A stretch of 64,000 nt of DNA from Haloprofundus halobius (GTDB lineage: Archaea; Halobacteriota; Halobacteria; Halobacteriales; Haloferacaceae). Below are positions 30,019 through 49,340 of the stretch, piece after piece (the stretch's first letter is position 1; the number at the start of each line of letters is the position of its first letter). Both the position numbers and the translations under genes were made by a program. Under the pieces are notes generated by a model that was not told where the DNA came from, searched no databases, and saw nothing but the letters and a program-made list of their open reading frames with translations. The stretch lies in the NCBI RefSeq assembly GCF_020097835.1, contig NZ_CP083666.1:2170001-2234000 (forward strand). Direction: 5' to 3'.

Positions 30019-31353
30019 ATGGATGGGAGCTACATCGAAAACAATCACTCAGGCACGGTAGCGGTTTCTCCGCGCCGTGCGTACGCGCTCGGTCTCGTGA
30101 TGGGTGAGAGCGAGGAGCGGCACCTTCTCCGCATTCTCGCTCGCGCAGTACAGTACGGTTATCCACTATTTGCGGTCCGGCGGGACGGATCGGTGCTTCA
30201 CGCCATCGGATTCGACGACGAGCCGGTAGAGGTCCGACTGCAGACGGAATCGCCCGTCGCCGACGCCGAGACGGCGCGACAGACGCTCGTCGAACTCGCG
30301 CAGGCGTACGGTATGCGCGGCCTCGTCATTCACGAGAACCCGGCGACGCGCATCGACTTTCAGGCGAGTTTCGACGCGCTCGAAGCCGGTGAGGAGTTCG
30401 CCATCGAAGCGTACGCCGAGGCGCAAAAGCGTGAACCGGTCGAAGCGCCCATCGTCGTCGGCATTCCCGCGTACAACGAGGAGAAGGCCGTCGGCCCCGT
30501 CGTCGCCGAGGCGAGCGAGTACGCCGACATCGTCGTCGTCGTCGACGATGGGAGCGTCGACGAGACGGCCGAACGAGCCGCCGAGGCCGGAGCCGTCGTG
30601 GTCGAGCACCCGGAGAATCGGGGGTACGGAGCGGCGCTCCGGACGCTGTTCGAGGAGGGACATCGCCGAAACGCGTCGAGTCTCGTCGTCCTCGACGCCG
30701 ACGGTCAACACAACGCCAGCGACGTGCAACGACTGCTACGGCGTCAGCAGGAGTGCAATGCCGACATCGTCATCGGCAGCCGTTTCACCGGAAGCGTCAC
30801 GAGCGACATCCCGCTGTACCGTCGGTTCGGCATCTGGATAATCAACGTCCTCACGAACGTCGGACTCGGGAGCCTTCGGAAGGAGAACCGAATCAGCGAC
30901 ACGCAGAGCGGGTTCCGCGCGTACGGACCGAGAGCGATCTGGACACTCGCCGAAGACGAGACGCTCGGAGAGAACATGCGAGCGAGCACGGACATCCTGT
31001 TTCACGCACGAAAGCGCGGTTATCAGATCGACGAAGTCGGTATCAAAGTGCGCTACGACCTCGAAGACACGTACACCGAAAATCCCGTGACGCACGGCTA
31101 CTCCGTCGTCAACGGAGTTCTCCGGCTCATCGAGCAGGACCGCCCGCTGACGACGCTCGGCGTTCCCGGCTTCGTCAGCGCGTTCGCCGGACTGAGCGTC
31201 GGCTACTGGTCGGTGTTCGAGTACGGCCAGAGCGGCGTGTTCCCGGTGGGAATCGTCAGTCTCTCCGTGTTGTTGCTTCTCGTCGGCTTCGTCGCCAGCG
31301 TCGTCGCTATCGTCCACCAATCGCTTCGCGGAGTACCACGAACGGAGTCATGA
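30019..31353 (+). CDS. GT2 glycosyltransferase with two membrane helices
   Basis: A 444-residue protein. Residues 1-145 are a haloarchaeal N-terminal domain (YALGLVMGESEERHLLRILA, then RAVQYGYPLFAVRRDGS). Residues about 150-350 are a GT-A glycosyltransferase of the dolichyl-phosphate sugar synthase type: VVGIPAYNEEKAVGPVVAEA, VVVDDGSVDETAERAAEAG, VVLDADGQHNASDV (the DXD), DTQSGFRAYGPRAI. Two C-terminal helices (VPGFVSAFAGLSVGYWSVF and GIVSLSVLLLLVGFVASVVA) anchor it. It would load a sugar onto a lipid carrier for N-glycan or polysaccharide assembly, as AglJ/AglD do. Its stop overlaps the next start (ATGA, 31350-31353). Confidence 0.88.
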   Translation: MDGSYIENNHSGTVAVSPRRAYALGLVMGESEERHLLRILARAVQYGYPLFAVRRDGSVLHAIGFDDEPVEVRLQTESPVADAETARQTLVELAQAYGMRGLVIHENPATRIDFQASFDALEAGEEFAIEAYAEAQKREPVEAPIVVGIPAYNEEKAVGPVVAEASEYADIVVVVDDGSVDETAERAAEAGAVVVEHPENRGYGAALRTLFEEGHRRNASSLVVLDADGQHNASDVQRLLRRQQECNADIVIGSRFTGSVTSDIPLYRRFGIWIINVLTNVGLGSLRKENRISDTQSGFRAYGPRAIWTLAEDETLGENMRASTDILFHARKRGYQIDEVGIKVRYDLEDTYTENPVTHGYSVVNGVLRLIEQDRPLTTLGVPGFVSAFAGLSVGYWSVFEYGQSGVFPVGIVSLSVLLLLVGFVASVVAIVHQSLRGVPRTES

Positions 31354-31973: not shown

Positions 31974-32171
31974 GTGAGCTCCACGATTCGAAATCTCGGG
32001 TGAATCGGACTGTGACCCGAACGACGACTCGGGATGGCTCCCTCCGCCCGGCTTTCGTATCAGTATCGAGTTACTTGTCGGCAGACAGGATCGAAGCGTG
32101 CGGAAAGCCGGCATTGTCAGCGGTACGATGGCGCTAACAATGTGGTTGTACGCAGACACCACCTCAGAACA

Positions 32172-33074
32172 GTGTCACATCACCAACTAACGAACGTACT
32201 CAGTTTCGACGTCGAACACTGGTATTCGGCGACGTTGCTCGCCGACAGCGTCGAGGACCCGGAGGACCGAATCGCCGAGTCGACCGACATCGTTCTCGAC
32301 GTTCTCAACCGCTACGACGTCCGTGCGACGTTCTTCGTCGTCGGCGAAGTCGCCGAGCAGTTCCCGTCTCTCGTCGGACGAATCGCCGACGACGGGCACG
32401 AAGTCGCCTCCCACGGACAGACGCACACGCCGCTTTTCGACCTGACGCCCGACACCTTCGAGCGCGAACTGGCGGCGTCGGCGGACGCGATAGAGCGGGC
32501 CTGCGGTCGGCGTCCCCGCGGCTTTCGCGCGCCGAACTTCTCGATAACGCGCCAGACAGAGTGGGCGTTCAAGGTTCTCGAAGACAGCGGCTACCGATAC
32601 GATTCGAGCGTGTTCCCGATGCGGACGCCGATGTACGGCGTCTCGAACGCGCCGCTTCGACCGTATCGAGTCCCGGAGAACGCGCCGTTTCGGCCGCCGA
32701 AGGCGAACACGCCGACGACCGGACTCGTCGAGTATCCGCTGGCGGTCACGGATACGTCCGTCAGACTCCCCGTCGCCGGCGGGTTCTACGCGCGCCTGCT
32801 GCCGACTCGCGTCGTCGAGTGGGGCATCCGCAGTCTCAACCGCCGGGGCATTCCGGCGACGATCTACTTCCATCCCTGGGAGTTCAACCCCGCCGTGGCG
32901 ACGCCGGAGCCGTCGCTGCCGAAGCGGTTCGTCAGCTTCCACGGCATCGAACGCACCGTCGAGAAACTGGAGCGGTTGCTGCGGACGTTCGAGTTCGGAA
33001 CGATACGCGACGAACTCGACGCTCGCGACTGGGCGGAACCGCGCGAAGCGACCACGACCGGAGAATCCGCATGA
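32172..33074 (+). CDS. Polysaccharide deacetylase, DUF3473 (XrtA-associated) type
   Basis: A 300-residue NodB-fold enzyme when started at GTG 32172 (VSHHQLTNVLSFDVEHWYSA); the frame extends upstream without coding character. Metal and catalytic motifs: LSFDVEHWYSATLL (DE pair), EVASHGQTHTPLFDL (HxxxH) and GFRAPNFSITRQ. The C-terminal part ending TIYFHPWEFNPAVATPEPS is the DUF3473 signature found in deacetylases of bacterial exosortase/XrtA polysaccharide loci. It would remove N-acetyl groups from surface glycan. Its TGA overlaps the ATG of the FemAB-like gene (33071-33074), so the genes are translationally coupled. Confidence 0.85.
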   Translation: MSHHQLTNVLSFDVEHWYSATLLADSVEDPEDRIAESTDIVLDVLNRYDVRATFFVVGEVAEQFPSLVGRIADDGHEVASHGQTHTPLFDLTPDTFERELAASADAIERACGRRPRGFRAPNFSITRQTEWAFKVLEDSGYRYDSSVFPMRTPMYGVSNAPLRPYRVPENAPFRPPKANTPTTGLVEYPLAVTDTSVRLPVAGGFYARLLPTRVVEWGIRSLNRRGIPATIYFHPWEFNPAVATPEPSLPKRFVSFHGIERTVEKLERLLRTFEFGTIRDELDARDWAEPREATTTGESA

Positions 33075-34153
33075 GCGACTCACGAACCACACGTTCGACG
33101 AGCGAGGAACCGACTATCGAACGCTGCGCCGATTCTACGGCGTGGGATCGCTTCGTCGAACGCGCCGACGGGCCGCCGTTCGCGCTGTGGGCGTGGGGCG
33201 ACGCCGCCGAGGCGTACGGCCACGACCGGTGGTATCTCGTCGCCCGCGAGGACGGCGACATCGTCGCCGGCCTCCCGCTCGTCCACATGACGAGCAGGCT
33301 GTTCGGCTCGAAACTCGTCTCGCCGCCGTACGGCGAGCGCGGGTCGGTGTTGCTCCGCGACGGTGATTCGGACGCCGCCACCGACCGCGCCGTCGACCGC
33401 CTCCTCGAACGGACCCGGGCGCTGGCGGACGCGCTCGGCGTCGAGTTCGTCAGCCTCCGCGGAAGTCGGGTCACCGAGATGCCGGGGTTCGAGCACAAAA
33501 ACCGGTTCGTCACGTTCCAGATTCCGCTGGAGTCGACGGAGGGCGTCTGGGAGGGCATCAAAGACAGCCGACAGCGCCAGGTCGCACAGGCCGAGGACGC
33601 CGGACTCACCTACCGAACCGGCGAGACGCTGGCAGACCTCGAAGCGTACTACGAGTTGTCGCTGCGGTCGATGCGCGGACACGGGACGCCGCCGCACTCG
33701 TTCGGATTTCACCGAACCATCTGGGAGGGCCTCGGCGACGACAACGTCCACCTCGGGATGGTCGAGTACGAGGGCGAGTTGATAAACGCGATTCTGGACT
33801 TCTCGCTCGGGTCGACCGTCCACCAGTGGGGCGTCGTCAACGACTACGAGTACCGCGACCTGAACGGGGGAAGTCTCGCGCTCTGGAAGTCGCTCGAACG
33901 CGCTAGCGAGGCGGGCCACGACACCTACGAGTTCGGCCGGACCCGCGAAGGCACGGGCGTCTACCTGTTCAAGAAGAGCTTCGGCGGGCGGAAGACGTGG
34001 TACGACGACTACCATTACTTCCCGACCGGTACCGGCGACCTGCCGCACCCCGACGACGACACGTACGACCGGGCCAAGGAGGTCTGGCAGCGACTGCCGA
34101 TTCCGGTGACACAGTACGTCGGCCCGCGGATTCGAAAGGAGATAAGCCTGTGA
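33071..34153 (+). CDS. FemAB-like GNAT transferase
   Basis: A 360-residue protein with tandem GNAT-like domains of the FemAB family: FALWAWGDAAEAYGHDRWYL, VAREDGDIVAGLPLVHMTSR, VWEGIKDSRQRQVAQAEDAG, LRSMRGHGTPPHSFGFHRTI, and VHQWGVVNDYEYRDLNGGSL with FGRTREGTGVYLFKKSFGG. In bacteria the closest type is the FemAB protein of XrtA/PEP-CTERM polysaccharide loci, which is thought to add an aminoacyl group to a sugar; here it follows the matching deacetylase, which would expose a free amino group. That pairing is inference. It overlaps its neighbours on both sides (ATGA and GTGA). Confidence 0.82.
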   Translation: MSDSRTTRSTSEEPTIERCADSTAWDRFVERADGPPFALWAWGDAAEAYGHDRWYLVAREDGDIVAGLPLVHMTSRLFGSKLVSPPYGERGSVLLRDGDSDAATDRAVDRLLERTRALADALGVEFVSLRGSRVTEMPGFEHKNRFVTFQIPLESTEGVWEGIKDSRQRQVAQAEDAGLTYRTGETLADLEAYYELSLRSMRGHGTPPHSFGFHRTIWEGLGDDNVHLGMVEYEGELINAILDFSLGSTVHQWGVVNDYEYRDLNGGSLALWKSLERASEAGHDTYEFGRTREGTGVYLFKKSFGGRKTWYDDYHYFPTGTGDLPHPDDDTYDRAKEVWQRLPIPVTQYVGPRIRKEISL

Positions 34154-35343
34154 CGCTGCACGTCGCGTACGTCGTCGGGCAGAGCACCGGCGGACTCCCC
34201 CATTACACCGCCGAACTCGCCAACGCCGTCTCGAAACACGCCGACGTCACGGTGTTGAAGCCCAAAGAGACCAGCGCCGACGACCTCTTCGCCGACAGCG
34301 TCGACGTCGTCGACGCCTTCGAGGCCATCAGCGTCTCGATGCCGAAGCTCTACAGTTTCGACGTCAACCCGCTCGACTTCGTCCGCGGGGTTCGTTCGTA
34401 CGCCAACCTCGAACTCCTCGACGAACTCGACCCCGACGTCGTCCACGACACGACGGATCTGTTCCCCCAGATGAAACTGTACGCCGGACTGCAGAACATC
34501 GGACGGCGGTGGCCGTTTGTCGTCACCCGTCACGAGGTGCCCGTCAGTCGGTTCTCGCTCTCGCGACCGCCGGTGCTGGTCGAGGAGCTGTTGAACGCCG
34601 CGCTGCCGAACGTCCACGAGTCGCAGTACGTCGTCCACTCGAAGAGGCAGAAAGCCGCTCTGGAGAGACAGGGCGTCGACGCCGACATCATCGAAGTCAT
34701 CCCCCACGGCGCGTACGCGGTGTTCGGCACCCACGAGGACGTGGAAGTCGAAAACGAGCCCAACAGTTTGCTGTTCTTCGGCAACATCGTTCCGCCGAAG
34801 GGACTCGACACGCTCGCGGAGGCGCTCCCGCTCGTCAAGCGCGAAGTGCCGGACGTGAAGCTGATGGTCGCCGGGGAGGGTCACCTGCCGCGTAAACTGA
34901 AGCGAGTGCGAAACGCGCACCCCGAGAACGTCGAGGTGCACAACTACTACCTGCCGAACGCCGAGGTGAAACACCTGTTCGGCCGCGCCGGAATCGTCGT
35001 CGCCCCGTACCGCAGTCAGGGCGGGACGAAGGGACACAGCGGCGCGGTGTCGACGGCGTTCTCGTTCGGCAATCCCATCGTCGCGTCGACGGCCGGGGAG
35101 TTCAAAGAACAGGTTCAGGAGACGGGCGCGGGGTTGGTCGTGCCGCCGGAGGACCCCGAGCGACTGGCGGCGGCCATCGTGAAGATACTGACGGACGACG
35201 AACTGCGCGAGTCGATGCGGCAGAACAGTCTGAAGATGGCCCAGCGACTCTCCTGGAGCAGCATCGCCGAACGTCACCTCGAACTGTACGAGCGACTCGC
35301 CGAGCGGACGCAGACGGCCGATTCGCCGGTGATCGAGGGATGA
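34150..35343 (+). CDS. GT4-family glycosyltransferase
   Basis: A 397-residue GT-B enzyme started at GTG 34150, overlapping the previous stop (GTGA). The N-terminal acceptor domain begins HVAYVVGQSTGGLPHYTAEL. The C-terminal nucleotide-sugar domain shows LLFFGNIVPPKGLDTLAEAL, VKLMVAGEGHLPRKLKRV, and VVAPYRSQGGTKGHSGAVST then AFSFGNPIVAS, the variant of the E-x7-E region of GT4. It transfers a sugar in the cytoplasm to a growing surface polysaccharide. It is central in a four-gene coupled unit (deacetylase, FemAB, GT4, GH16). Confidence 0.88.
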   Translation: MTLHVAYVVGQSTGGLPHYTAELANAVSKHADVTVLKPKETSADDLFADSVDVVDAFEAISVSMPKLYSFDVNPLDFVRGVRSYANLELLDELDPDVVHDTTDLFPQMKLYAGLQNIGRRWPFVVTRHEVPVSRFSLSRPPVLVEELLNAALPNVHESQYVVHSKRQKAALERQGVDADIIEVIPHGAYAVFGTHEDVEVENEPNSLLFFGNIVPPKGLDTLAEALPLVKREVPDVKLMVAGEGHLPRKLKRVRNAHPENVEVHNYYLPNAEVKHLFGRAGIVVAPYRSQGGTKGHSGAVSTAFSFGNPIVASTAGEFKEQVQETGAGLVVPPEDPERLAAAIVKILTDDELRESMRQNSLKMAQRLSWSSIAERHLELYERLAERTQTADSPVIEG

Positions 35344-36191
35344 GCCCGAGGAGGACTCCATCGAAGCGACTGTCGCGCCGCCGGCTCCTGCAGTCGGGTG
35401 CGATAGCGGCCACTCAGTTCGGGGCCGGATGTGTCACCGCCGGGAACGGTGGGCTCTCCGCCACTCGAAACCGGACCGACCAACAGGAGCCTCCGCCGAC
35501 CGCGCCGCAGAACCGACCAGTCGACACCTCCGACATGACGCTCGTCTTCGAGGACTGGTTCGAGGGCGACTCGCTCGACCGCTCGAAGTGGATGACGAAG
35601 TTCCCGTGGGACACGCGGACGCACAACTTCGACGCCTACGCCGCCGACGAGAACGCGTACGTCGAAGACGGTAAACTCGTACTCCTGGCGGAGGACAAAC
35701 CACGAGAGGAGATGTCGTACACGACGGGCGTCGTCGCGGCGGATTGGATTTTCGGCCCCGGTTACTTCGAGGGCGTGATGAAGGTGCCGCCACGGTTCCC
35801 GGGGTCGTGGCCCGCGTTTTGGCTCACGTCGGCGTCGGTTTGGCCGCCGGAGGTGGACATCTTCGAGTTCTTCGGCGATGACCCGAAGGCGTACATGAGT
35901 TACCACTACAACGGAGAGGACAACGAGATCGAGAGGGTGTACGACTCGTACGACGGGGGCGACTACAGCGACGGTTTCCACGAGTTCAGCGTCGACTGGG
36001 ACCCGCCCGAACGCATCGTCTGGTACATCGATGGCGAGGAGCGGTTCCGCTACACCGGCGACTACATCAAATTCGAGCACATGCACCTCATCTTGAACTT
36101 CGGCCTCGGAGCCGACTTCCTGGGGTATCCGAGTTCGGAATACCTGCCGTCGACGTACGAAATAGAACGCATCAGAGCGTGGGAGCGATGA
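35340..36191 (+). CDS. GH16 endoglycanase, Tat-exported lipoprotein
   Basis: A 283-residue protein. The N-terminus SRRRLLQSGAIAATQFGAGC is a Tat signal ending in a lipobox-like cysteine, so it is exported folded and likely anchored by lipid. The GH16 jelly roll spans about residues 65-283: DWFEGDSLDRSKWMTKF, FGPGYFEGVMKVPPRFPGSW, catalytic PPEVDIFEFFGDDP (E-x-D-x-x-E), FHEFSVDWDPPERIVWYIDG. GH16 enzymes cut or remodel beta-1,3/1,4 glycans. ATG 35340 overlaps the GT4 stop; its coupling to biosynthesis genes suggests trimming or release of the locus polysaccharide. Confidence 0.88.
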   Translation: MSPRRTPSKRLSRRRLLQSGAIAATQFGAGCVTAGNGGLSATRNRTDQQEPPPTAPQNRPVDTSDMTLVFEDWFEGDSLDRSKWMTKFPWDTRTHNFDAYAADENAYVEDGKLVLLAEDKPREEMSYTTGVVAADWIFGPGYFEGVMKVPPRFPGSWPAFWLTSASVWPPEVDIFEFFGDDPKAYMSYHYNGEDNEIERVYDSYDGGDYSDGFHEFSVDWDPPERIVWYIDGEERFRYTGDYIKFEHMHLILNFGLGADFLGYPSSEYLPSTYEIERIRAWER

Positions 36192-36251: not shown

Positions 36252-39116
36252 TCAGTTGGCGAAGTCGGTCTCGGTGCCGTCGAGCGTCGTGACGACGTCG
36301 CCGCCGAACGTCGAGACGTCGGTGATTTCGCCCCCGACGAGCCAGTAGGCGTCGGTTCCGCTGACGACCTTACCGAAGACTTTGCCGCCGTTTACCTCGT
36401 CGTCCGGGTTGATGGACGAGCGAGGCACGTCCGCCTTCAGAAGTCTCCCCGTCGACTCGACCATGTACTTGACGAGGCCGTCGCTGTCGGCCGCGCGCTG
36501 GACGCGGAACAACTGGACTGGTTGCCCGTCGAGCGTGACAGTCGCGTCACCGTCGAGCGAGAGCCCTTCGAGTTCGCCCTCGAAGCCGAAGACGGCCTGA
36601 CCGTCGCTCACGGATCCGCTGGCGGAGCCGTCCGAGATAGACGCCTCGTCGCTCGCACCGCTGTCGGCTTCGAGCGCTCCGCTGACGGAGAACTCGTAGT
36701 TGGTCGTCCCCGAGGAACCGCTGCCGTCGACGGTGAGCGTGTTCGGCAGCGACGAACCCGACTCCTCGTCGTCGCCGTCCTCGCCGTCGGTGTCGCCTCT
36801 CCCGTCGTCTCCCGATTCGACCAGTTCGTCGGGTTCGACGTACTCGTTGTCGAGGTAAATCTCCAGACTCCCGGAGTAGTCGAACGACGTGATTTCGCCA
36901 TCGCAGTAGAATCCGGGGAGTTGACCGTTCTGCGAGTCAGCGGTCCCGCGTGCGGTCGTGTAGTCGGACGAGACGCTGTAGTCGTTCGACGCGGGGTTAG
37001 AGAGTTCCTGCTTCACAACAGCGCCGTCGACGGTAAACTCGAACTCTCCCGTTCCGTCCGAATCGGCACGAATCCAGATGAAGTGTTCGTCGGGAGACGG
37101 TGCGTCCTGCGAAGAGTCCTGCGAGGAGCCTTCCGAGGAGTCCTGCGAGGAGTCTTCCGAAGAGTCCTGCGAGGAGTCTTCCGAAGAGTCCTGCGAGGAA
37201 CCTCCCGAGGAGTCCTGTGAGGAGTCTTCCGAAGAGTCTCCCGTGTTTCCACCGGAGAAACGCCCGTCGATATTCAGGTCTACCGACCACTGACTGCCTT
37301 CATCGGTCTGATACTCGTCGAGATGCGGCGAGTAGGTCGTGGCTTCGACGGTGAGCGTATCGGCGGACTCCTCCAATCCGAGAAGGCGGAGCCATCCGTT
37401 CCCTCCGTTGTCACGGGTCTGGTAGTTCGCGAGCATTTCGAGCACGTCGTTCCCCGCGTCGTTTTGGCTGACTTGGTGGTACTCGCCCGCTTCGTCCGGG
37501 TCGTCGCCGTCGTATTCGTGTCCACAGAGGACCATCACGATCTGGTCGTTCTGTGAGACGAAGTCCTCCCAAATCTCTTCGCCCGAATACCCGTCCTCGT
37601 TCTCTTCGTCTTCCCACGTTTTTCGACCCGTCTGCCCGGGGATATCGGTGAGGTATTCGTGCGTAGAGACAATCGTCGGCAGACCCGAGTGGTCGTCGAC
37701 GACGCTCTGTGCCCACTCTAACGCCCCTCGGGACGGTGCACCCTCCCATTCGAGCGCGATGTTCAGCCACTCGCGGCCGCCGGCCTCGAAGATCTGGTAG
37801 TGGCTGAAATCTTCGTGAGAACCACCGTACCACGAGTAGTCGCTGTACCGAGACTCGCCGAAGTATTCGGGATAGAGCGACTCTCCGCTCCGGTCTCCGT
37901 AAGGTTCCCAGTCGTGGTTCCCGTTACAGACGGAGTAGGGGAGTTCCCCGTCGAGAACACTCAACACACCGTCTAAGTCCTCGTACTCGCTCTGTGAGTC
38001 CCCGTTCTCGACTACGTCACCGACGTGGGTGGCGAAGGCGATGGACTCGCTGTCGGCGTTATCGACTATCCACTCCGTCTGCGAGCGGGCGATATCGACG
38101 CCATCACCGCTAAAGACGTACTTCTGCGTGTCGGGGATGTGAGCGATAGTGAACGGTCCGTCGACGTCTTCGGACGTCTCTTCGGTGTCGTCGCCGTCGC
38201 TTGACTCGTTCGATGATCCGCTGCTCGACTCGCCGTCGTTGCCGTACTCCCAGACGCGGACCCAGTCGACCGCCATCTCCTCGTCCCAGTTCTCCGACTT
38301 GTCGGTCGTTCCGACGCGGTCGATGTGGATGGAGAGCATCATGTAGAACGGCGCGCCGTTGTTGCAGGACTCGACGATGGTGTCGGCGGTGCGCTCCGCG
38401 ACGAGTTGACCGTCGACGTAGTGTCGAATCGCGTCCTCCTGCCACTCGCAGCCGTAGACGTGGAAGTTCTCGCAGAGGTCGTTCCCCACGTCGTAGCTGG
38501 CCCCGTCGTCCTCGTGCGGACCGTTCGGTTCCGTGTCCGACGAGTAGTGGATGTGGTGGTGCGACTGCGTGTAGTCGTCCGACGAACCGTCCGTCTGGAA
38601 CAGTTCGACGAAGTCGATCTCGGGCGGCCAGTCCTCGCTGTCCGGCTTCGCCCAGAACGCCGGCAGGAAGCCGACGCGCTTGGGGAACCGAATCTTCGCC
38701 TCCCAGTAGCTGCCGGGGCCGAACGTCTGCAGCCCCTTCGTGTTCACCGCGCCCGCTTCGATGCCGTTGTCGGGCGACGCCCCTATTCGAAGCTGACCGT
38801 CGGTGACGTTAACGTACTCCTCTGAGATGCTCTCCGGCGAGGCGTCAGTCTCCATGCCCCATCCGAATCCGACTCCCCAGTTCGAGGTGTCGAGCGACCC
38901 GCTGTCGAAGGTGTCCTCGAAGGCGAGCGTCCACTCGTTCTGGTTCGACGGGCCTCCCTCGCTCACGTCTGCAACACCACTCGTGCTGGCGCCGAGTCCG
39001 CCGAGCAAGGCGGCGCTCGCGCCCGTGAGTTTGAGGTAGCCCCGCCGGTCGATAAGCTTGCTGTCGTCCGAGTCTTCGCTACTGTACGTGTCGTCTGACA
39101 GTTGTTCGCGTGCCAT
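36252..39116 (-). CDS. Secreted GH16-metallophosphoesterase fusion with Ser-rich linker
   Basis: A 954-residue protein. Residues 22-45 (DRRGYLKLTGASAALLGGLG) are a Tat signal. A GH16 domain follows (about 58-290; EAKIRFPKRVGFLPAFWAK, catalytic PPEIDFVELF at about 165-174). Next is a calcineurin-type metallophosphoesterase (about 318-620): IAHIPDTQKY, ATHVGDVVENGD, VCNGNHDWEPYG, VMVLCGHEYDGDDP. Then a 45-residue linker of SSQD/SSED units (about 625-675) and two copies of the local beta module (EFEFTVDGAVVKQEL... and NYEFSVSGALEADSG...). A glycan hydrolase joined to a phosphoesterase suggests attack on a phosphorylated extracellular polymer. Transcribed convergently to the GH16 lipoprotein gene. 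Confidence 0.85.
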   Translation of the reverse strand: MAREQLSDDTYSSEDSDDSKLIDRRGYLKLTGASAALLGGLGASTSGVADVSEGGPSNQNEWTLAFEDTFDSGSLDTSNWGVGFGWGMETDASPESISEEYVNVTDGQLRIGASPDNGIEAGAVNTKGLQTFGPGSYWEAKIRFPKRVGFLPAFWAKPDSEDWPPEIDFVELFQTDGSSDDYTQSHHHIHYSSDTEPNGPHEDDGASYDVGNDLCENFHVYGCEWQEDAIRHYVDGQLVAERTADTIVESCNNGAPFYMMLSIHIDRVGTTDKSENWDEEMAVDWVRVWEYGNDGESSSGSSNESSDGDDTEETSEDVDGPFTIAHIPDTQKYVFSGDGVDIARSQTEWIVDNADSESIAFATHVGDVVENGDSQSEYEDLDGVLSVLDGELPYSVCNGNHDWEPYGDRSGESLYPEYFGESRYSDYSWYGGSHEDFSHYQIFEAGGREWLNIALEWEGAPSRGALEWAQSVVDDHSGLPTIVSTHEYLTDIPGQTGRKTWEDEENEDGYSGEEIWEDFVSQNDQIVMVLCGHEYDGDDPDEAGEYHQVSQNDAGNDVLEMLANYQTRDNGGNGWLRLLGLEESADTLTVEATTYSPHLDEYQTDEGSQWSVDLNIDGRFSGGNTGDSSEDSSQDSSGGSSQDSSEDSSQDSSEDSSQDSSEGSSQDSSQDAPSPDEHFIWIRADSDGTGEFEFTVDGAVVKQELSNPASNDYSVSSDYTTARGTADSQNGQLPGFYCDGEITSFDYSGSLEIYLDNEYVEPDELVESGDDGRGDTDGEDGDDEESGSSLPNTLTVDGSGSSGTTNYEFSVSGALEADSGASDEASISDGSASGSVSDGQAVFGFEGELEGLSLDGDATVTLDGQPVQLFRVQRAADSDGLVKYMVESTGRLLKADVPRSSINPDDEVNGGKVFGKVVSGTDAYWLVGGEITDVSTFGGDVVTTLDGTETDFAN
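37105..37239 (-). repeat. Coding tandem repeat of 12-bp units (SSQD/SSED)
   Basis: About eleven imperfect 12-bp units encode alternating SSQD and SSED blocks, a flexible acidic linker between the phosphoesterase and beta modules. The near-identity of units indicates slippage-type expansion and predicts length variation between strains. Confidence 0.85.
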
Positions 39117-41122: not shown

Positions 41123-42556
41123 ATGGACCTTGGTCGCTCGTCGTTCAGCATGGTGCTCTCGAAGAGTGGTAACGCTCTCCTGATGTTCGGCGCCATCACC
41201 TTCTTCGCTCGGGCGCTCGACTCGACGCAGTTGGGGATCTTCTTTCTCTTCTTCGCCGTACAGGGACTTCTGTCGATTCCGGCCGATCTGGGTCTCCGTG
41301 GAGCACTGGAGAAGCGCCTCAGCGAGGGGGGAGACGTGGAGACGATACTCGGCTCCGCTCTCGCGTTCAAAATGGTACTGTTGGGGGTCGTCTCGCTGGC
41401 GATTCTCGCGTTTCGACCGTGGATAAACGACTACCTCGGTGCCGACCTCGCGGGACTCCTCATAATCACCCTGGTGCTCCGAGAGCTCGGAATGCTGTAC
41501 ATTCGCGCGGTACGCGGCGAACTCCGCGTCGGCGAAACCGCACCCATCGAGTTCGCCCGGCGGTTCGTCTGGGTCGCGGTCGGAGTGATCCTCGTCACGC
41601 AGGGGTTCGGTATCCTCGGCATCGTATACGGCCTCATACTCGGTTCTGCGGTCTCGCTGATTTGGGCGTACGCGAAGTGTAGCATCGCCATCGGGAGCCC
41701 CTCGATGGTGGAGGTGAAGTCGCTTTTCGCCTTCTCGAAGTACGACACCATCACCTCGGTCGGCGGCGAAATCTACCAGTGGATGGACTCGGCGTTCATC
41801 GGATTCTTCCTCGCCGCCCATTTCGTCAGCGTGTACGAGATCGCGTGGCAGATCACGCTGCTCGTCATCCTGGTGAGCAGGTCCATCTCGCTGACGCTGT
41901 TCCCGCAGATAAGCCAGTGGAACGCCACCGCCTCGAACGACCTCATCGAGGAGACCCTCTCGAACGCTGTCGGCTTCGCCGTCTTCGTTTCGATTCCGGC
42001 CATCGTCGGCTCGATGCTCTACTCGACGGAGATTCTCCACTACATCTTCGGACCGGAGTACACCGTCGCCTCGCTCGTACTCGTAATTCTGATGATAGAG
42101 AAGCTGTTTCAGTCGTTCAACGACATCGTCGGCAGAACCGTCCGGGCGATAGATCGCCCTGACCTCGCCGCGAAAGCGACGGTCGTCTCCGTCAGTATGA
42201 ACCTGGTTCTCAACCCGATACTCATCGTCTCCATCGGGTTCGTCGGTGCGGCTATCGCTACCACCATCTCGTGGTTCTTCAACATGCTCCTCCACACCCA
42301 CTATCTCTCCCGGTACATCACCATCCAGATTCCGTACCGGCTCATCGGGTGGTACACGGTCATGTCGCTGGTGATGGGCGGGGTTCTCCTCGTGGTCAAG
42401 TCGGCGCTGCCCGTGACTGGACTCTCCCTCTTGATCGGACAGATCGGACTCGGCACCGCCATCTATTTCGCCGCGGCAGTCGTCGTGCCCGACGTCCGGA
42501 GACGGATCGTCGTTCCGGGGCTCCGAATCATCGGGATACGGGTCGACTGGCGCTGA
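41123..42556 (+). CDS. Oligosaccharide flippase (polysaccharide biosynthesis protein)
   Basis: A 477-residue multi-pass protein of the MOP superfamily (Wzx/AglR type) with about 14 helices. It starts MDLGRSSFSMVLSKSGNALL and shows LLSIPADLGLRGALEKRLSE, FALASKYD-like FAFSKYDTITSVGGEIYQWM, ISLTLFPQISQWNA and ILIVSIGFVGAAIATTISWF, all typical of lipid-linked oligosaccharide flippases. It would turn the lipid-bound sugar units made by the locus glycosyltransferases to the outer face. Length is normal. It stands between the ATP-grasp remnant and the DUF2206 gene on the same strand. Confidence 0.88.
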   Translation: MDLGRSSFSMVLSKSGNALLMFGAITFFARALDSTQLGIFFLFFAVQGLLSIPADLGLRGALEKRLSEGGDVETILGSALAFKMVLLGVVSLAILAFRPWINDYLGADLAGLLIITLVLRELGMLYIRAVRGELRVGETAPIEFARRFVWVAVGVILVTQGFGILGIVYGLILGSAVSLIWAYAKCSIAIGSPSMVEVKSLFAFSKYDTITSVGGEIYQWMDSAFIGFFLAAHFVSVYEIAWQITLLVILVSRSISLTLFPQISQWNATASNDLIEETLSNAVGFAVFVSIPAIVGSMLYSTEILHYIFGPEYTVASLVLVILMIEKLFQSFNDIVGRTVRAIDRPDLAAKATVVSVSMNLVLNPILIVSIGFVGAAIATTISWFFNMLLHTHYLSRYITIQIPYRLIGWYTVMSLVMGGVLLVVKSALPVTGLSLLIGQIGLGTAIYFAAAVVVPDVRRRIVVPGLRIIGIRVDWR

Positions 42557-42740
42557 GTCGGCTGGCCGTCCCCGACCGTTCAGTCGTCGAAAAACTCTTC
42601 CGAGTACGACGTAACTCCCAAAGTGAGAGAAATTATATGTAAATCACGCTGGTAGAACCATTATATCTGGTTGTCACGTCGTGTGGCCCGAGTCGACGCG
42701 CTCGGCCTTCGACATCGCAACCGGAGCGGATATCAAACCT

Positions 42741-45098
42741 ATGGCACAAAATATCTCCCAAACAGAGATGCAGGTGGCGTGGAGCCCGATCGCAATCGTC
42801 ACCGTCGTCGGTGGTCTGCTCGTCGCCTTCTGGGCAAGCACGCTCGTCTCGGCATCCACGCCCGTCTTCTCGGGTGTTCGAGTGCTCACCGCGAGCCTCC
42901 TCTTTCTGTTCTTCCCCGGTGCGTTGGTGATTCGCCTGCTCGACCTTCGAGTGCGTTCGTTCGGTCCGTTCGTCGTGCTCTCCGTCGGATTGAGTTTCGC
43001 CATCCTCTCGGCGGTAACGATCACGACGAGTGTCGCCTTGCCGGCTCTCGGCGTGACGGCGCCGCTGGCGTTGGTGCCGCTCGGGGTCGTGCTCTCGCTC
43101 GTCGTCGCGGGCCTGGTCGCGCTCGTCTCCTCGACGGACACCGAACTCCCGAGGCTGAACACCGACTTCGGGGTGTCGACGCCCGTACTCGCACTCGTCA
43201 CGTTCCTGCCGACCGTCGCCGCCGTCGCGACCATCCTCATGGACAGCAGCGGCAACAACGCCGGGATGTTCCTGTTCGTCGTCGCGACCGCGTTCGTCGC
43301 CGTTCTCGCGTCGGTTCGACACCTCCCGTCGACGTTCTATCCGCTCACCGTCTTCTCGGTCGCGCTCTCGATGGTCCTGCACCGGAGCCTGTTGACCGAC
43401 CACGTCGTCGGAGCGGACATCCAGAACACCTTCTTCGTCTCGTCGGTCATCGGCCGCGCGGGCGTGTGGAGTCCGGAGATAAACGGGACGTCGATGGCCG
43501 TTCCGATGATGACGTCGGTCCCGGTATCGGTGACGGTGCTCACCGGTATCGGACTGCCGACGACGTTCAAGGTGACCTACGCGCTTCTGTTCGCACTCGT
43601 CCCGGTCGGGATGTACTACATCGCGCGTGAAGTGTTCGACTCGAACATCGCGCTGTTCGGAAGCCTCTTCATCTCGTTCTACCACCTCTCGTTTTACTTC
43701 ACGCCCGGCAAGCAGTTGGTCTCGCAACTGTTCGTCGTCGGACTGATGCTGCTCTACGTTCGGACACGGCTCGCCACGACCGGGAGTAAAGCCGCCGCGG
43801 TTCTCCTGGCAGTCGGGCTTGTCCACAGTCACTACGCGGTGACGTACGTGCTCGGAATCTCGCTTCTCGTCGCCGTCACCGGGCTCTTTCTGACGCGACG
43901 GATCGTCGGCAAGTTCGACCACGGACTCTCGTTTAGCTACCCGCTGATTCTCCTCGGCGGAGCGACGGCGTGGTACGTCTACTCTTCACAAGAGCTGGTT
44001 TCGACGCTCGCGTCCATCCCGATAAGCCTCCGCGACCAGATAATCACACTCCTTCTGACCGGGATCGTCCAGGGGTCGGGCAGCAGCTACGTCGCCGGCC
44101 CGTCGACGTACCTCGACGACCTCCGTCTCCTGCTCTACGTGGTGTTCTCGTTACTGCTGACGGTCGGGCTAGCCCGGCACGCCCTCACCCAACTGCGCCA
44201 GATCTGGGACGGTGAGGCCCCCGACTACGTGGAGTACACGGCGTTGGCGGTCCCGCTCCTCGTCTTCCTGTGTTCGGCGTACTTTTTCACCATCAACCTC
44301 TGGGCCGACAGAGCGTACCAGTTGGTGCTCGTCGTCCTCGCGCCGTTCATGCCGCTCGGCTATCGAATCCTCGTCGAGGATTTCAACACCGTCCGCAGCG
44401 CCATCTCCTCGCGCGACTTCTCGCCGGAACGGGCCTCGATCGGACGGGGCAGTTGGACCGTCCTCGCAGTACTTCTCGCGGTGCTTCTGGCGTTCAACTC
44501 CGGTATGGTGTTCGCGGTCGCCGGCCCCGCCCAGACGGCGTCGTTCAACCCCGAGGCGCACGACTATGCGTTCAGCGAGGACGAGCGCGCCGGCGCGAAC
44601 TGGCTGCTCGTGAACACCAACATCACGGAAACCGAGGCGTACACGCCGGACCAGACTGACAACTCGGACGAGGTTCCGGTGTTCACCGACTCCGTCAGCA
44701 GTCAGATGTTCAGGTCGGAACTCCCCGACAGCTACTACACCAGCGAGACGATCGACCTCAAGGATCGCTGGGACCCCCAACTGGATCTCGACCGGGTAGA
44801 CAGGGGGTACGTCTACCTCCGCCACCGTAGCGTCGTCGACGTCGACCCCGACGAACCCGTGTCGACGGACCACCTCTCGAAAGCCAACGAGACGGTGATA
44901 ACGTCGACGCACCACGTCGTCTACAGCAACGGGAACGCCAGCGTCGTCAAGGTCCAACCGGAGATGGTCGGCAACGAGACGCAACCGTGGAACGACTCCT
45001 CGAACGTGTCGCCGCCGCCGGCAGAACTCACGGCGGCGGAGACGACGCGTTCCGACGTTTCTCATGCGCGGCACTCGAACGGGGGAAGTCGACGGTGA
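42741..45098 (+). CDS. DUF2206-type large membrane protein
   Basis: A 785-residue protein from ATG 42741 (MAQNISQTEMQVAWSPIAIV); an in-frame GTG at 42681 would add 20 residues. About 14 helices come first (VTVVGGLLVAFWASTLVS, FLFFPGALVIRLLDLRV, LLYVVFSLLLTVGLARHAL), then an extracellular C-terminal domain (SEDERAGANWLLVNTNITET, YVYLRHRSVVDVDPDEPVST). The pattern, including the early aspartate-containing loop DHVVGADIQNTFF, resembles DUF2206 and GT-C glycosyltransferases, so it may transfer or polymerise sugars outside the membrane. Several NxS/T sites are present. Its stop overlaps the next start (GTGA, 45095-45098). Confidence 0.8.
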   Translation: MAQNISQTEMQVAWSPIAIVTVVGGLLVAFWASTLVSASTPVFSGVRVLTASLLFLFFPGALVIRLLDLRVRSFGPFVVLSVGLSFAILSAVTITTSVALPALGVTAPLALVPLGVVLSLVVAGLVALVSSTDTELPRLNTDFGVSTPVLALVTFLPTVAAVATILMDSSGNNAGMFLFVVATAFVAVLASVRHLPSTFYPLTVFSVALSMVLHRSLLTDHVVGADIQNTFFVSSVIGRAGVWSPEINGTSMAVPMMTSVPVSVTVLTGIGLPTTFKVTYALLFALVPVGMYYIAREVFDSNIALFGSLFISFYHLSFYFTPGKQLVSQLFVVGLMLLYVRTRLATTGSKAAAVLLAVGLVHSHYAVTYVLGISLLVAVTGLFLTRRIVGKFDHGLSFSYPLILLGGATAWYVYSSQELVSTLASIPISLRDQIITLLLTGIVQGSGSSYVAGPSTYLDDLRLLLYVVFSLLLTVGLARHALTQLRQIWDGEAPDYVEYTALAVPLLVFLCSAYFFTINLWADRAYQLVLVVLAPFMPLGYRILVEDFNTVRSAISSRDFSPERASIGRGSWTVLAVLLAVLLAFNSGMVFAVAGPAQTASFNPEAHDYAFSEDERAGANWLLVNTNITETEAYTPDQTDNSDEVPVFTDSVSSQMFRSELPDSYYTSETIDLKDRWDPQLDLDRVDRGYVYLRHRSVVDVDPDEPVSTDHLSKANETVITSTHHVVYSNGNASVVKVQPEMVGNETQPWNDSSNVSPPPAELTAAETTRSDVSHARHSNGGSRR

Positions 45099-46087
45099 CC
45101 GACTCGAACGACCGTCCGCTGGTCTCGTACATCGTTGCGACGTTCAATAGAGCCGACGACCTGGCGGACGCCGTCGACTCCGTTCTCGCCCAGCAGTACC
45201 GACCGCTCGAGGTGGTCGTCGTCAGCAACTCGACGGACCGAGCGCGGGAGGCCGAACTGTTCGAGGACGGCGGTCGGTTCGACCTCGACTGCGTGCAGTA
45301 CCACCACTACCCGGAGCGGATGGGCGCGCCGGGCGCGAAGAACGTCGCAATCGAACACGCCTCCGGCGAGTTCGTCGTCCAGATAGACGACGACGCCGTG
45401 ATGGTCGACGAGGACGCGACCGACGAAGTGCTCAGACTGTTTGAGCGGTACGAGGACGTCGGAATCTTGGCGTTCAAGTCGCTCGACTACTACACCGGCG
45501 AGGTGAAAGTCGACGAGACGCCCGACGCGCCGGAGTTCCACATCTCCCCGGAGGAGCAGTACCGGACCACGAGCTTCATCGGTATGGGGACCGCGTTCCG
45601 GCGCGAGATGTTCGAGACGACCGGACTGTACCCCGACAACTTCGTCTACGGATTCGAGGAGATGGACCTCTCGATACGGGCGCTCGACGCCGGCTACGAC
45701 ATCCTCTACGCGCCCTCGGTCGCGGTGTACCACAAGAAGACGCCCGAGGGGAGAATTCCCGACACGGAGACCAAAGAACGCCTCGTCGAGAATCGCATCA
45801 ACATCGCCGTCCGCAACCTCCCGTGGCGGTACGTCCTGTTCACGACGCTCATCTACTCCGTCTACGTGGTGTTCCTCACGAAGAGCGTCTCGTCGCTCGC
45901 GAACGTGTACCGCCGACTGTACGGGAAGCGGGACCGACTCCGCGCCGAACGGAATGTCGTCGACAGACGGACCATCGAGCGCATCAAGTCGCGAAAGACG
46001 ATGCTGTTTCTCTGGTGGTACGGACCGCACCCGAAGCGAATCTTCGGCCCGGACGGTGACCTCGGTCGACTGAAGTGGGAAGCATAA
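45095..46087 (+). CDS. GT2 glycosyltransferase, rhamnosyltransferase-like
   Basis: A 330-residue GT-A enzyme started at GTG 45095, overlapping the DUF2206 stop. Motifs: SYIVATFNRADDLADAVDSV, VVVSNSTDRAREAELFEDGG, ASGEFVVQIDDDAVMVDED (DXD region), FIGMGTAFRREMFETTGLYP and GFEEMDLSIRALDAGYDILY (the ED motif of inverting GT2). A C-terminal hydrophobic stretch (YVLFTTLIYSVYVVFL) associates it with the membrane. It would add a sugar to the locus glycan. Translational coupling links it to DUF2206. Confidence 0.88.
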   Translation: MTDSNDRPLVSYIVATFNRADDLADAVDSVLAQQYRPLEVVVVSNSTDRAREAELFEDGGRFDLDCVQYHHYPERMGAPGAKNVAIEHASGEFVVQIDDDAVMVDEDATDEVLRLFERYEDVGILAFKSLDYYTGEVKVDETPDAPEFHISPEEQYRTTSFIGMGTAFRREMFETTGLYPDNFVYGFEEMDLSIRALDAGYDILYAPSVAVYHKKTPEGRIPDTETKERLVENRINIAVRNLPWRYVLFTTLIYSVYVVFLTKSVSSLANVYRRLYGKRDRLRAERNVVDRRTIERIKSRKTMLFLWWYGPHPKRIFGPDGDLGRLKWEA

Positions 46088-46470: not shown

Positions 46471-48066
46471 ATGACACGACAGAATCAGACCCGAAGGCGG
46501 TTTCTCGCGGGGAGTGCAGCAACGCTCGGTTCGCTGTCAGTTCTGACCGGCGGGGCGGGCGCCCGGACGTCGACGCGGATACTTGCGGTCGTCAACGCGA
46601 CCGGTGACGGTCCGGCGAAGTACCGATTCAGCGTCGACGGCGACGTCGAGAAGACGACGGAGACCGGCGGCGCGCCGAACGGATTCGCCTCGCTCAACGA
46701 CGACGACCGTCTCACCGAGACGACCGCCGAAGGACGCGTCCACGGCGGTGCGGACGCGTACCGCATCTCCGGTTCTCTGACCAGTCTGGTCGTCGAGGGC
46801 GGCGCGGGCGTCTACGTCGACGGCGAGGAGATCGACGCGGGCGACTACCCGTCCCCGAGCGTACTCGCGATGACGGGAGACGGCGAGTACACGTTCTCGG
46901 CTGACGGCAGCGTCGCGAAGACGATACTGACCGGCGGCGCGGACGTGCCGCCCGCGTCGCTCAACGACGCCGACACCGTCGACGGCACCGACGTCTCGGG
47001 GTCGACGTTCGGCGGCACCGACGCGTACGTCGTCGACGGCGAGCTCACCGAGTTCGATCCGGCGGACGGACTCACCGCGTTCCTCGACGGCGAGGAGTAC
47101 ACGGGGCCGTCGGACGGGCGAGGCGAGACCGGTGGCACCGACGACGCCGACGACACCGGCGGTGACGAAGACGATGGCGGAGAGACGGCCGCCCCCGAAC
47201 TGTCGTTCCCCGACTGTACGACCGTCGAGATATCGGGGTCGTTCGAGGCGGCGTCGCTGGAAGTACTGGTCGAGGACGACGACCCCGAGACGACGCCGAT
47301 GGAGCAGGTGTACGAGTACGAGAACGACGACGGCGCAACCGAAGCGACCGTCTCGGTTCCGGCGGACGAGTTCGGTCCGTATCAGGTCGTCGAGTACGCA
47401 ATTGTCACCTACGGCGACGGGCGGACCGTCGAGGCGACGAATCCGGACGCGGGCGCGTGTCGCGACGAGACGTTCCCGGCGACGGAACCGACCGTCGAGT
47501 TCCCCGACTGTACGACTGTCGAGATATCGGGGTCGTTCGAGGCGGCGTCGCTGGAGGTACTGGTCGAAGACGACGATCCCGAGACGACGCCGATGGAGCA
47601 GGTGTACGAGTACGAACACGACGGCGAGTCCGAGGACGCGACGGTGAGCGTCCCCGACGACGAGTTCGGCCCGTACCAGGTCGTCGAGTACGCCACCGTC
47701 ACCTACGACGACGGGCGGACCGTCGAGGCGACGAATCCGGACGCGGGCGCGTGCCGGGACGAGACGTTCCCCGTCGAGCGAAGCCTCGAGTTCGTCGACT
47801 GCACCACCGTACACGTCGCGGGCGCGTTCGACGACCTCTCCATCGAAGTGCTCGTTCGGGACGACATGCCGACGACGCCGATGGAACAGGTGTACGAACA
47901 CGAGGGCGACGGCGAGTCCGAGGAGACGACGGTGAGCGTCCCCGACGGTGAGTTTGGCCCGTACCAAGTCGCCGAGAGAGCGACCGTGGTCTACCCCGAC
48001 GGCGAAGTCGTCGAGGCGACGAACCCCGACGCGGGCACGTGTCGAGACGAGACGTTCCCGGAATGA
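46471..48066 (+). CDS. Tat-exported repeat protein with two beta modules and three C-terminal repeats
   Basis: A 531-residue secreted protein. QTRRRFLAGSAATLGSLSVL is a Tat signal. Two beta modules follow (about 35-118 and 128-212), with KYRFSVDGDVEKTTETGG and YTFSADGSVAKTILTGG as hallmark strands and the ends VYVDGEE and AFLDGEEYTGP. After an acidic linker come three tandem repeats of 97-98 residues (from about 244, 342 and 439), each starting PDCTTV or VDCTTV and ending VEATNPDAG then CRDETFP. Paired Cys in each repeat could form disulphides. No catalytic motif. It looks like a structural or adhesive cell-surface protein; this is inference. Next to a paralogue and a glycan locus. Confidence 0.75.
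   Translation: MTRQNQTRRRFLAGSAATLGSLSVLTGGAGARTSTRILAVVNATGDGPAKYRFSVDGDVEKTTETGGAPNGFASLNDDDRLTETTAEGRVHGGADAYRISGSLTSLVVEGGAGVYVDGEEIDAGDYPSPSVLAMTGDGEYTFSADGSVAKTILTGGADVPPASLNDADTVDGTDVSGSTFGGTDAYVVDGELTEFDPADGLTAFLDGEEYTGPSDGRGETGGTDDADDTGGDEDDGGETAAPELSFPDCTTVEISGSFEAASLEVLVEDDDPETTPMEQVYEYENDDGATEATVSVPADEFGPYQVVEYAIVTYGDGRTVEATNPDAGACRDETFPATEPTVEFPDCTTVEISGSFEAASLEVLVEDDDPETTPMEQVYEYEHDGESEDATVSVPDDEFGPYQVVEYATVTYDDGRTVEATNPDAGACRDETFPVERSLEFVDCTTVHVAGAFDDLSIEVLVRDDMPTTPMEQVYEHEGDGESEETTVSVPDGEFGPYQVAERATVVYPDGEVVEATNPDAGTCRDETFPE
47200..48063 (+). repeat. Three tandem coding repeats of about 294 bp
   Basis: Units begin near 47200, 47494 and 47785. The first two are almost identical at the DNA level over long stretches, which indicates a recent duplication or gene conversion; the third has diverged. 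Confidence 0.88.
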
Positions 48067-48332: not shown

Positions 48333-49340
48333 ATGAAGGAAACACATACAAGCCGCCGGACGTTCCTCGCTGGCAGTCTCACAGCCCTCGGCGCAACCGC
48401 GACAACGATGACCGTACACGCACAAGAAACTGAGTGGAGAAACGTGGTCGTCTCGGGTACTCCCGGGTCCGGGCCGGTTCGCTACGAACTGGAGTCCGAC
48501 GGAACCGTCGAGAAGACGACCGAGACGGGCAGCGCGCCGGTCGACGGCGCGTCGATAAACGCCAACGACACGCTCGAAGGGAGCTACGCGAGCGGGGTCG
48601 TCGTCGGGGGCGTCGACGCATACCGGTACACCGGCGAACTGACGCTGCTGTCGGTGGAGGGCGACGCGACTGTCTACCTCGACGGCTCACAGACCGACCC
48701 CGACAGCGTCGGCGAGAGCTACGACTACCTCACGGTCGTCGGCGACGGACCGCGGACGGAGTACAGCTTCGAAACCGACGGCGACGTGGCGAAAACGAAC
48801 ATGACCGGCGGCGCGCCGAAGAGCTACGCGTCGATTCAGGGCGGCGACACCGTCGACGGCGGGTCGGTCAGCGGCACGGTGCTCGGCGGCGTCGACGCCT
48901 TTCGCGTCTCCGGCGACATCACCGCCTTCGAGCTCTCGGGCGGGACCGCGTACCTCAACGGGCAGGAGTACACGGGACCGGGCGGCGACGACGAAGACGA
49001 CGACCGCGGCGGGGATTCGGACGCGGCGATTCGATTTACGGGCTGTACGGGCGTCGAAGTGGACGGGAAGTTCGATCAGGTGTCGCTGTCGGTGCTCGCC
49101 GCCGACGCGGGCTGTCAGACGGGGACTCGCTACTACGAACAGGAGTACGTCTACGGGTTGGCCGAGAGCGAAACCATCGAAGGGACGACGGCGGTCGACC
49201 TCCCGGACGGCCACTTCGCGGAGTACCAGATGGTCGAATCGGCGACCGCGGAGGGAGACGAGACCGTCGAGGTGACGAACCCCGACGCCGACGCCTGCCG
49301 CGACGAGATGGAGTCGCAGCTCGAATCGGCCTGCGACTAA
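48333..49340 (+). CDS. Tat-exported paralogue with two beta modules and one C-terminal repeat
   Basis: A 335-residue secreted protein. TSRRTFLAGSLTALGATATT is a Tat signal. Two beta modules follow (about 35-125 and 130-214): VRYELESDGTVEKTTETGSA, then VVVGGVDAYRYTGELTLLSV; and YSFETDGDVAKTNMTGGAPK, ending AYLNGQEYTGP. After an acidic linker there is one diverged copy of the C-terminal repeat (GCTGVEVDGKFDQVSLSVLA ... VEVTNPDADACRDEM). It is a clear paralogue of the gene just upstream. No enzyme motif; a surface role is inferred. A TATA-like ATAAATAC lies near 48253. Confidence 0.75.
   Translation: MKETHTSRRTFLAGSLTALGATATTMTVHAQETEWRNVVVSGTPGSGPVRYELESDGTVEKTTETGSAPVDGASINANDTLEGSYASGVVVGGVDAYRYTGELTLLSVEGDATVYLDGSQTDPDSVGESYDYLTVVGDGPRTEYSFETDGDVAKTNMTGGAPKSYASIQGGDTVDGGSVSGTVLGGVDAFRVSGDITAFELSGGTAYLNGQEYTGPGGDDEDDDRGGDSDAAIRFTGCTGVEVDGKFDQVSLSVLAADAGCQTGTRYYEQEYVYGLAESETIEGTTAVDLPDGHFAEYQMVESATAEGDETVEVTNPDADACRDEMESQLESACD

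Follow-up and report, generated by a model that had tools for sequence, protein, structure and literature searches.

The question raised by this locus is why a glycoside hydrolase and a metallophosphoesterase should be joined in one exported protein. The gene concerned lies on the minus strand, at positions 36252-39116, of a 64,000-nucleotide stretch of the Haloprofundus halobius genome (NCBI RefSeq GCF_020097835.1, contig NZ_CP083666.1, positions 2,170,001 to 2,234,000; hereafter the window, in whose coordinates features are given). A single open frame of 954 codons encodes a domain of glycoside hydrolase family 16 (GH16) and a calcineurin-like phosphoesterase fold in one chain, and comparison with congeneric species indicates that the second was inserted into a pre-existing GH16 protein. 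The reading that we favour, at a rough probability of one half, is that of an exported glycanase that acts on the exopolysaccharide (EPS) of the same cell and has captured a surface phosphoesterase.

The start of the gene is backed by collinear N-termini among the orthologues, and the domain order is signal of the twin-arginine translocation (Tat) type, GH16, linker, phosphoesterase, a second linker rich in Ser, Asp and Gln, and three beta modules (A, B and C). The N-terminus (38967-39116) carries RRGYLKLTG at residues 24-32, a stretch kept in the orthologues, whose arginine pair (residues 24-25) we take to be a Tat motif; export of the protein is predicted from it. The GH16 domain (residues 59-292; 38241-38942) is followed by an acidic Ser/Gly linker (linker 1, residues 293-319; 38160-38240; placed by DNA alignment with two orthologues), the phosphoesterase-fold domain (residues 320-628; 37233-38159) and a Ser-Asp/Glu-Gln linker (linker 2; 37101-37232), the DNA of which is a 12/24-nt tandem array (37104-37238, 11 units of 12 nt). 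Module A (residues 673-766; 36819-37100) was recognised by a drop in identity and in the G+C fraction at third codon positions (GC3, here 0.75), module B (residues 790-869; 36510-36749) by phmmer and orthologue comparison, and module C (residues 868-954; 36255-36515) by a phmmer match of 8.4e-11 to a neighbouring copy. The original prediction, made from the sequence of the window alone, had described GH16 and a phosphoesterase in one 954-residue Tat substrate with an expandable Ser-Asp-Gln linker and two copies of a beta module. Its single chain is borne out by Pfam, homologues and an AlphaFold2 model, and its linker by the tandem array; the module copies are three instead of two. A mis-called frame or two adjacent genes are ruled out by the open frame and the collinear orthologues.

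The identity of residues 59-292 as GH16 is certain from sequence comparison. Pfam PF00722 matches residues 121-286 at E 2.8e-15, its 56.6 bits lying above the curated cut-off of 22, solved laminarinase-type enzymes in the PDB match at E about 1e-10, and the E-x-D-x-x-E motif is present as EIDFVE (residues 166-171, with E166, D168 and E171; 38604-38621), which we presume to be catalytic. The nearest curated NCBIfam models, EglC (6.3e-14, 51.7 of 700 bits) and ExoK (NF052392; 5.1e-9, 36 of 350 bits), are matched far below their cut-offs, so that equivalence to ExoK is not reached, and PHROGs returned only an unnamed family covering the GH16 part. What the protein shares with ExoK is that a predicted exported GH16 enzyme is encoded within an EPS cluster. 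In Sinorhizobium the exoK and exsH glycanases, the products of GH16 genes in EPS clusters, make low-molecular-weight succinoglycan (PMC4916376, in its accessible part). By analogy, the GH16 part would act like ExoK, cutting the EPS that the cell itself makes.

The phosphoesterase domain was harder to place by domain search, in which the original prediction had expected both catalytic domains to appear: GH16 did, whereas Pfam gave no match to the phosphoesterase region at E<=1 with the whole protein or at E<=0.1 with the domain alone, and this half of the prediction is backed by homologues and a structural model instead. Two alignments were used, A1 with 24 rows (the window domain and 23 of the 26 other matches; excluded were L024, where the match to a kinase is spurious, and L023 and L032, which are fragments of a single gene) and A2 with 27 rows (the window domain and 26 of 27 loci; L072, at 29% identity, was excluded). 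In A1 the window domain is homologous from end to end to the other 23 members at 41-48% identity, and PF00149 is matched by 23 of the 24 members, the window domain being the sole exception. The AlphaFold2 model built from the 27-row alignment is confident (pLDDT 90.1, pTM 0.91), and Foldseek matched it to purple acid phosphatases at E values down to 1.6e-10. In VIA comparisons, where scores within 1 Z unit count as ties, the model matched 2xmo (Lmo2642; Z 21.3, root-mean-square deviation (rmsd) 3.6, 257 residues aligned), 2bq8 (purple acid phosphatase; Z 20.0, rmsd 3.7, 248 aligned), 2nxf (dimetal phosphatase; Z 19.8, rmsd 3.1, 239 aligned), SMPDL3A (Z 19.4, rmsd 3.6, 263 aligned) and GpdQ (Z 19.2, rmsd 3.1, 224 aligned). 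The model thus makes a calcineurin-like phosphoesterase fold clear; a different fold, considered on account of the missing Pfam match, is ruled out by the confident model and these structural matches.

The ligand places in the window domain are D329, Q331, D367, N400, H401, H486 and H533, with Y535 at the last place. The GD, GNHD and H ligands of PF00149 are present (D367, N400-H401 and H486), whereas DxH is replaced by DTQ, which is invariant in all rows of A1 and A2, and GHxH reads CGHEY, its last histidine being a tyrosine. That histidine is retained in 17 of 24 rows of A1 and 16 of 27 rows of A2 (absent in 11 of the 27). GD and the THxY histidine are invariant, the Asn of GNHD is Asp in two rows of each alignment, and the residues invariant throughout the haloarchaeal DTQ family are all kept in the window domain. 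Loss of metal-binding residues across homologues had been named beforehand as evidence that would speak against a phosphoesterase; it was found in part, at Y535 and at the same place in 11 of 27 members, while the other ligand positions are kept and the Gln is family-wide. Judged from the alignments, the metal site is the DTQ family's own, non-canonical one, and because it belongs to that pattern the domain is likely to have the predicted phosphoesterase activity. Among the structural matches, 2nxf is an ADP-ribose/CDP-alcohol diphosphatase with a Gln ligand. In a tree of 52 rows the window domain is placed no more closely than within an almost wholly haloarchaeal set of 40 (support 90/87; one row is nanohaloarchaeal). 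By eye, the residues THEYL look bacterial. A second, distant haloarchaeal phosphoesterase clade (L159-L163; frames of 371-401 aa, 30-35% identity) is set apart from the main family by a long branch.

How the two domains came together can be read from the congeners. Three of four (G010, G070 and G055) have an orthologue with the same N-terminus, GH16 domain and modules and without the phosphoesterase; the fourth, G036, gave a module match only and none to GH16. Between the window protein and that of G010, 254 of 292 residues (87%) are identical over the N-terminus and GH16, 63 of 76 (83%) in module B and 72 of 86 (84%) in module C, in contrast to 42 of 87 (48%) in module A, a module in which G010 and G070 are 95.5% identical (97% in GH16). 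The GC3 profile follows the same borders: 0.91 in GH16 and 0.82 in the 27 residues of linker 1, about 0.75 across the phosphoesterase, linker 2 and module A. It returns to 0.87 in the part that starts with module B, and the orthologues have no such dip in module A (0.82-0.86). Because GC3 is low in the block and module A is at 48% against 83-87% in the flanks, the segment appears to be a captured cassette. The simplest account, which is well supported by these comparisons, is that an ancestor of the type GH16, linker, module A, B, C had its module A replaced by a block of linker, phosphoesterase, linker and another module A (approximately 36810-38220, from linker 1 to the end of module A). The DNA alignments place one junction in or near linker 1 and the other in the acidic spacer that precedes module B, where recombination would have taken place. 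The fusion is, on this comparison, a recent and local event and no established enzyme type; an old fusion is ruled out by the congeners and outgroups, in which it is missing.

The module A that came with the block is nearest to module A of the orthologous GH16 proteins (44% in G010, 36-41% in G092), and for this reason the block may have come from another GH16 protein that already held a phosphoesterase. No donor of the block was found among the 3 to 9 top candidates scored for each of 170 genomes of the family and 392 of the order (overlapping sets), so that misses are possible; the best candidates reached 48-50% in the phosphoesterase and 44% in module A; of the plasmid records, 43 had a match and none covered 80%. 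In other haloarchaeal genomes, GH16 matches of this type stand in groups of two or three, a few kilobases apart at most, at G161:C1:390907-394055 (its first part being L080), G092:C3:85531-91088 and G129:C4:201689-204473; one of them has an internal stop codon, and such clusters suggest local duplication and decay.

The same combination was not met elsewhere. No other single match spanned GH16 and the phosphoesterase in 391 genomes of the haloarchaeal class, and none did so among the matches listed for 384 genomes of the bacterial class of L061 (scoring again covered the best 3 to 9 candidates of each genome, so that misses are possible). No GH16-like stretch was seen by eye in the 27 named phosphoesterase loci and the free-standing relatives inspected; in the 27 loci the phosphoesterase starts 15 to 144 residues into the protein. 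No GH16-metallophosphoesterase fusion was reported in the open PubMed Central (PMC) papers that a search on the two terms retrieved, judged by titles and the starts of abstracts. The original claim that no described enzyme has this combination thus holds within these genomes and listed matches, and what the window offers is a new combination of known kinds and no new kind of enzyme.

Seven copies of the beta module were found with phmmer, three in the fusion protein (36255-37100) and two each in the exported proteins at 46471-48066 (copies at 46576-47112) and 48333-49340 (48435-48983), both on the plus strand and without a Pfam match. The module is all-beta, of about 90 residues and without a Pfam family; the seven copies gave a confident model (pLDDT 93.5, folded on a neighbouring protein's copy), for which Foldseek found no structural relative at E<=0.001, and the best VIA match, DUF4425 (Z 5.6, rmsd 2.8, 74 aligned), scores in the unspecific range. 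We claim neither a fold family nor a new fold, and a carbohydrate-binding module (CBM) or adhesin family is possible. Of 116 genomes sampled from the class, 79 had a match to its profile, spread over 40 of 46 genera and often on exported proteins; in Pfam, three of ten module-bearing frames were beta-helix or pectate-lyase-like, one had a weak match without obvious meaning and six had none. It is a common haloarchaeal accessory module, which may plausibly serve in attachment to the matrix or surface. By eye, the C-terminal part of the protein at 46471-48066 consists of three repeats that resemble one another, each about 95 residues long and containing DCTTV, which are likewise without a Pfam match; one related repeat seems to end the protein at 48333-49340.

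The neighbouring genes, all on the plus strand, have the composition of an EPS cluster. Convergent to the fusion gene lies a companion GH16 gene (35340-36191; PF00722 7.9e-18) with an RR...C, lipobox-like signal, which also adjoins the orthologue in a congener (71% identity). Before it stand a family 2 glycosyltransferase (GT2; 30019-31353, by Pfam), a polysaccharide deacetylase with DUF3473 (32034-33074, by Pfam), a frame with a FemAB-like acetyltransferase (PF13480; 32561-34153) and a family 4 glycosyltransferase (33997-35343), the true starts of the last two probably lying inside these frames; beyond the fusion gene follow a polysaccharide flippase (41123-42556), a DUF2206 membrane protein (42681-45098) and a second GT2 (44987-46087). 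The cluster is largely conserved in G010, the gene order being retained from the deacetylase through the second GT2 at 52-80% identity; the GT2 at 30019 had no match in the G010 stretch examined. Among haloarchaea, EPS clusters are on record that hold glycosyltransferases together with a gene of the sulfatase family (PMC5467301, in its accessible part).

A further clue comes from the free-standing relatives of the phosphoesterase. A dockerin-like tail, scored by a sequence pattern of our own, is present in 14 of 19 haloarchaeal relatives, and a cohesin-like gene abuts directly downstream, within about 10 bases, in 13 of the 14 dockerin-bearing cases and in none of the five without a dockerin (the cohesin profile was built from six of the 13 genes found, and those six match by construction). 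Dockerin-tailed phosphoesterase and following cohesin-like gene are seen, for example, at L048:4749-8041, and at 12 further loci. Among four relatives searched with Pfam, three had Dockerin_1 (two just under the curated cut-off) and three CBM96; Pfam Cohesin was found on several neighbours, and some cohesin-like proteins end in a hydrophobic tail. From sequence, the pair looks like a two-gene surface-tethering unit. The window protein has no dockerin by Pfam, its C-terminal end being module C, and the pair is absent from it. In the 143 open reading frames (ORFs) neighbouring the 19 haloarchaeal loci of the 27, chosen by an acidity and GC3 score devised here, the commonest Pfam families were Cohesin (10), GT2 (9), GT2-like (7), UDP-Glc/GDP-Man dehydrogenase (6) and Sulfatase (5). 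Of 10 phosphoesterase loci, 4 have a GT2 no more than 10 kb away, against 5.8% expected (P 0.0018, a rough value since the six genomes were hand-picked and several loci come from one genome). Because of the dockerin-cohesin pairing and the GT2, Cohesin and Sulfatase neighbours, the evidence points away from phosphate uptake and towards relatives that act at the surface, either on the glycans of the cell or close to them. Among the open PMC papers listed, none was on cohesin-dockerin systems in haloarchaea, judged by title, and none on a metallophosphoesterase with a dockerin in archaea was found.

Taken together, an exported chain with two catalytic-type domains and three C-terminal beta modules, put together by replacement of module A, would work as follows. 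Its GH16 part would cut the polymer of the surrounding cluster, in the manner of rhizobial ExoK and ExsH, with the companion GH16 alongside. The phosphoesterase, with a predicted two-metal site of D329, Q331, D367, N400, H486 and H533, may, on weaker grounds, cleave phosphomono- or phosphodiester groups in the same matrix, which could be phosphates attached to the EPS or else phosphoesters, of nucleic acids or other compounds, that are caught there. The modules would keep the two activities at the cell surface or in the matrix, a position that the free-standing relatives probably reach by dockerin and cohesin instead. The phosphorylated extracellular glycan of the original prediction is possible, given the EPS cluster and the relatives near glycosyltransferases, cohesins and sulfatases, but we know of no phosphate in the polymer of this strain, and nothing on phosphate in haloarchaeal EPS was found among the open papers listed, including the accessible part of PMC5467301. 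Judged by title, no usable paper on phosphatases in polysaccharide utilisation came up either.

Several observations weigh against this account. To our knowledge, activity is known for neither domain, and at 6 of the 10 phosphoesterase loci the surrounding 10 kb hold no GT2. With the fusion seen in a single genome, selection for it cannot be assessed. The window domain lacks its own Pfam match, has a tyrosine at a ligand place and sits on a long branch (0.83) of the tree of 52 rows, and its phosphoesterase may be weakened or altered. These last features, with the single-genome event, would also fit a weak or dead passenger, or a binding module, that was brought in with module A while GH16 alone acts. 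We regard this as the most serious rival and still doubtful, as the fold is preserved along with every other ligand position (D, Q, D, N, H, H), and the site may work without the last histidine, which 11 of 27 aligned members lack.

Phosphate scavenging, in which the enzyme would release phosphate for uptake by cleaving extracellular glycans or nucleic acids, was the second possibility of the original prediction. An exported domain whose phosphoesterase fold resembles those of purple acid phosphatases and GpdQ would suit such a role; the gene, however, sits convergently inside a conserved EPS cluster, and the 25 commonest of the 147 Pfam families in the 143 ORFs around the 19 relatives include no phosphate-uptake family. 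The proposal found no support here and appears improbable. Two genes joined by mis-assembly or annotation, as a single genome and a sharp GC3 step might suggest, can practically be set aside, because the frame is open across both junctions, the block includes a divergent module A and joins modules B and C in frame, and the contig is 3.2 Mb long with a surrounding cluster collinear with that of a congener.

The capture of a surface phosphoesterase by an EPS glycanase can be carried further, into a speculation that we consider unlikely: that the EPS carries phosphoesters, that the newly assembled two-activity enzyme cuts both sugar backbone and phosphoesters at the cell surface, that the polymer of the congeners lacking the block has no phosphoesters, and that fusion replaces the dockerin-cohesin tether. 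The locus provides a natural before-and-after pair, in which congeneric species share the place and the flanks and differ in whether a second catalytic-type domain is present, and it yields a testable prediction, a phosphate difference between the surface polymers of the fusion strain and of the congeners without the block. EPS processing is hardly known in this haloarchaeal group. That the exported phosphoesterases tend to occur with a dockerin and a partner cohesin gene hints, for the family as a whole, at where these enzymes act.

Compared with ExoK, ExsH and EglC, the window protein shares the GH16 fold and catalytic motif, predicted export and a gene inside a polysaccharide biosynthesis cluster; it differs in being an archaeal Tat protein with three beta modules and an extra phosphoesterase domain. 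The orthologous GH16-A-B-C proteins of the congeners occupy the same locus and are 83-87% identical outside the block (G010, G070), but they have no phosphoesterase and a module A of another type. The haloarchaeal Tat-exported DTQ phosphoesterases, with CBM96/DNRLRE domains and dockerin tails, resemble the window domain over its whole length (41-48% identity, the same invariant residues); they are free-standing and probably tethered by dockerin and cohesin, whereas the window domain is fused to GH16. From Lmo2642, purple acid phosphatase, 2nxf, GpdQ and SMPDL3A, with which sequence identity is merely 11-16%, the window domain is set apart by DxQ and GHxY and by its fusion behind a GH16 domain.

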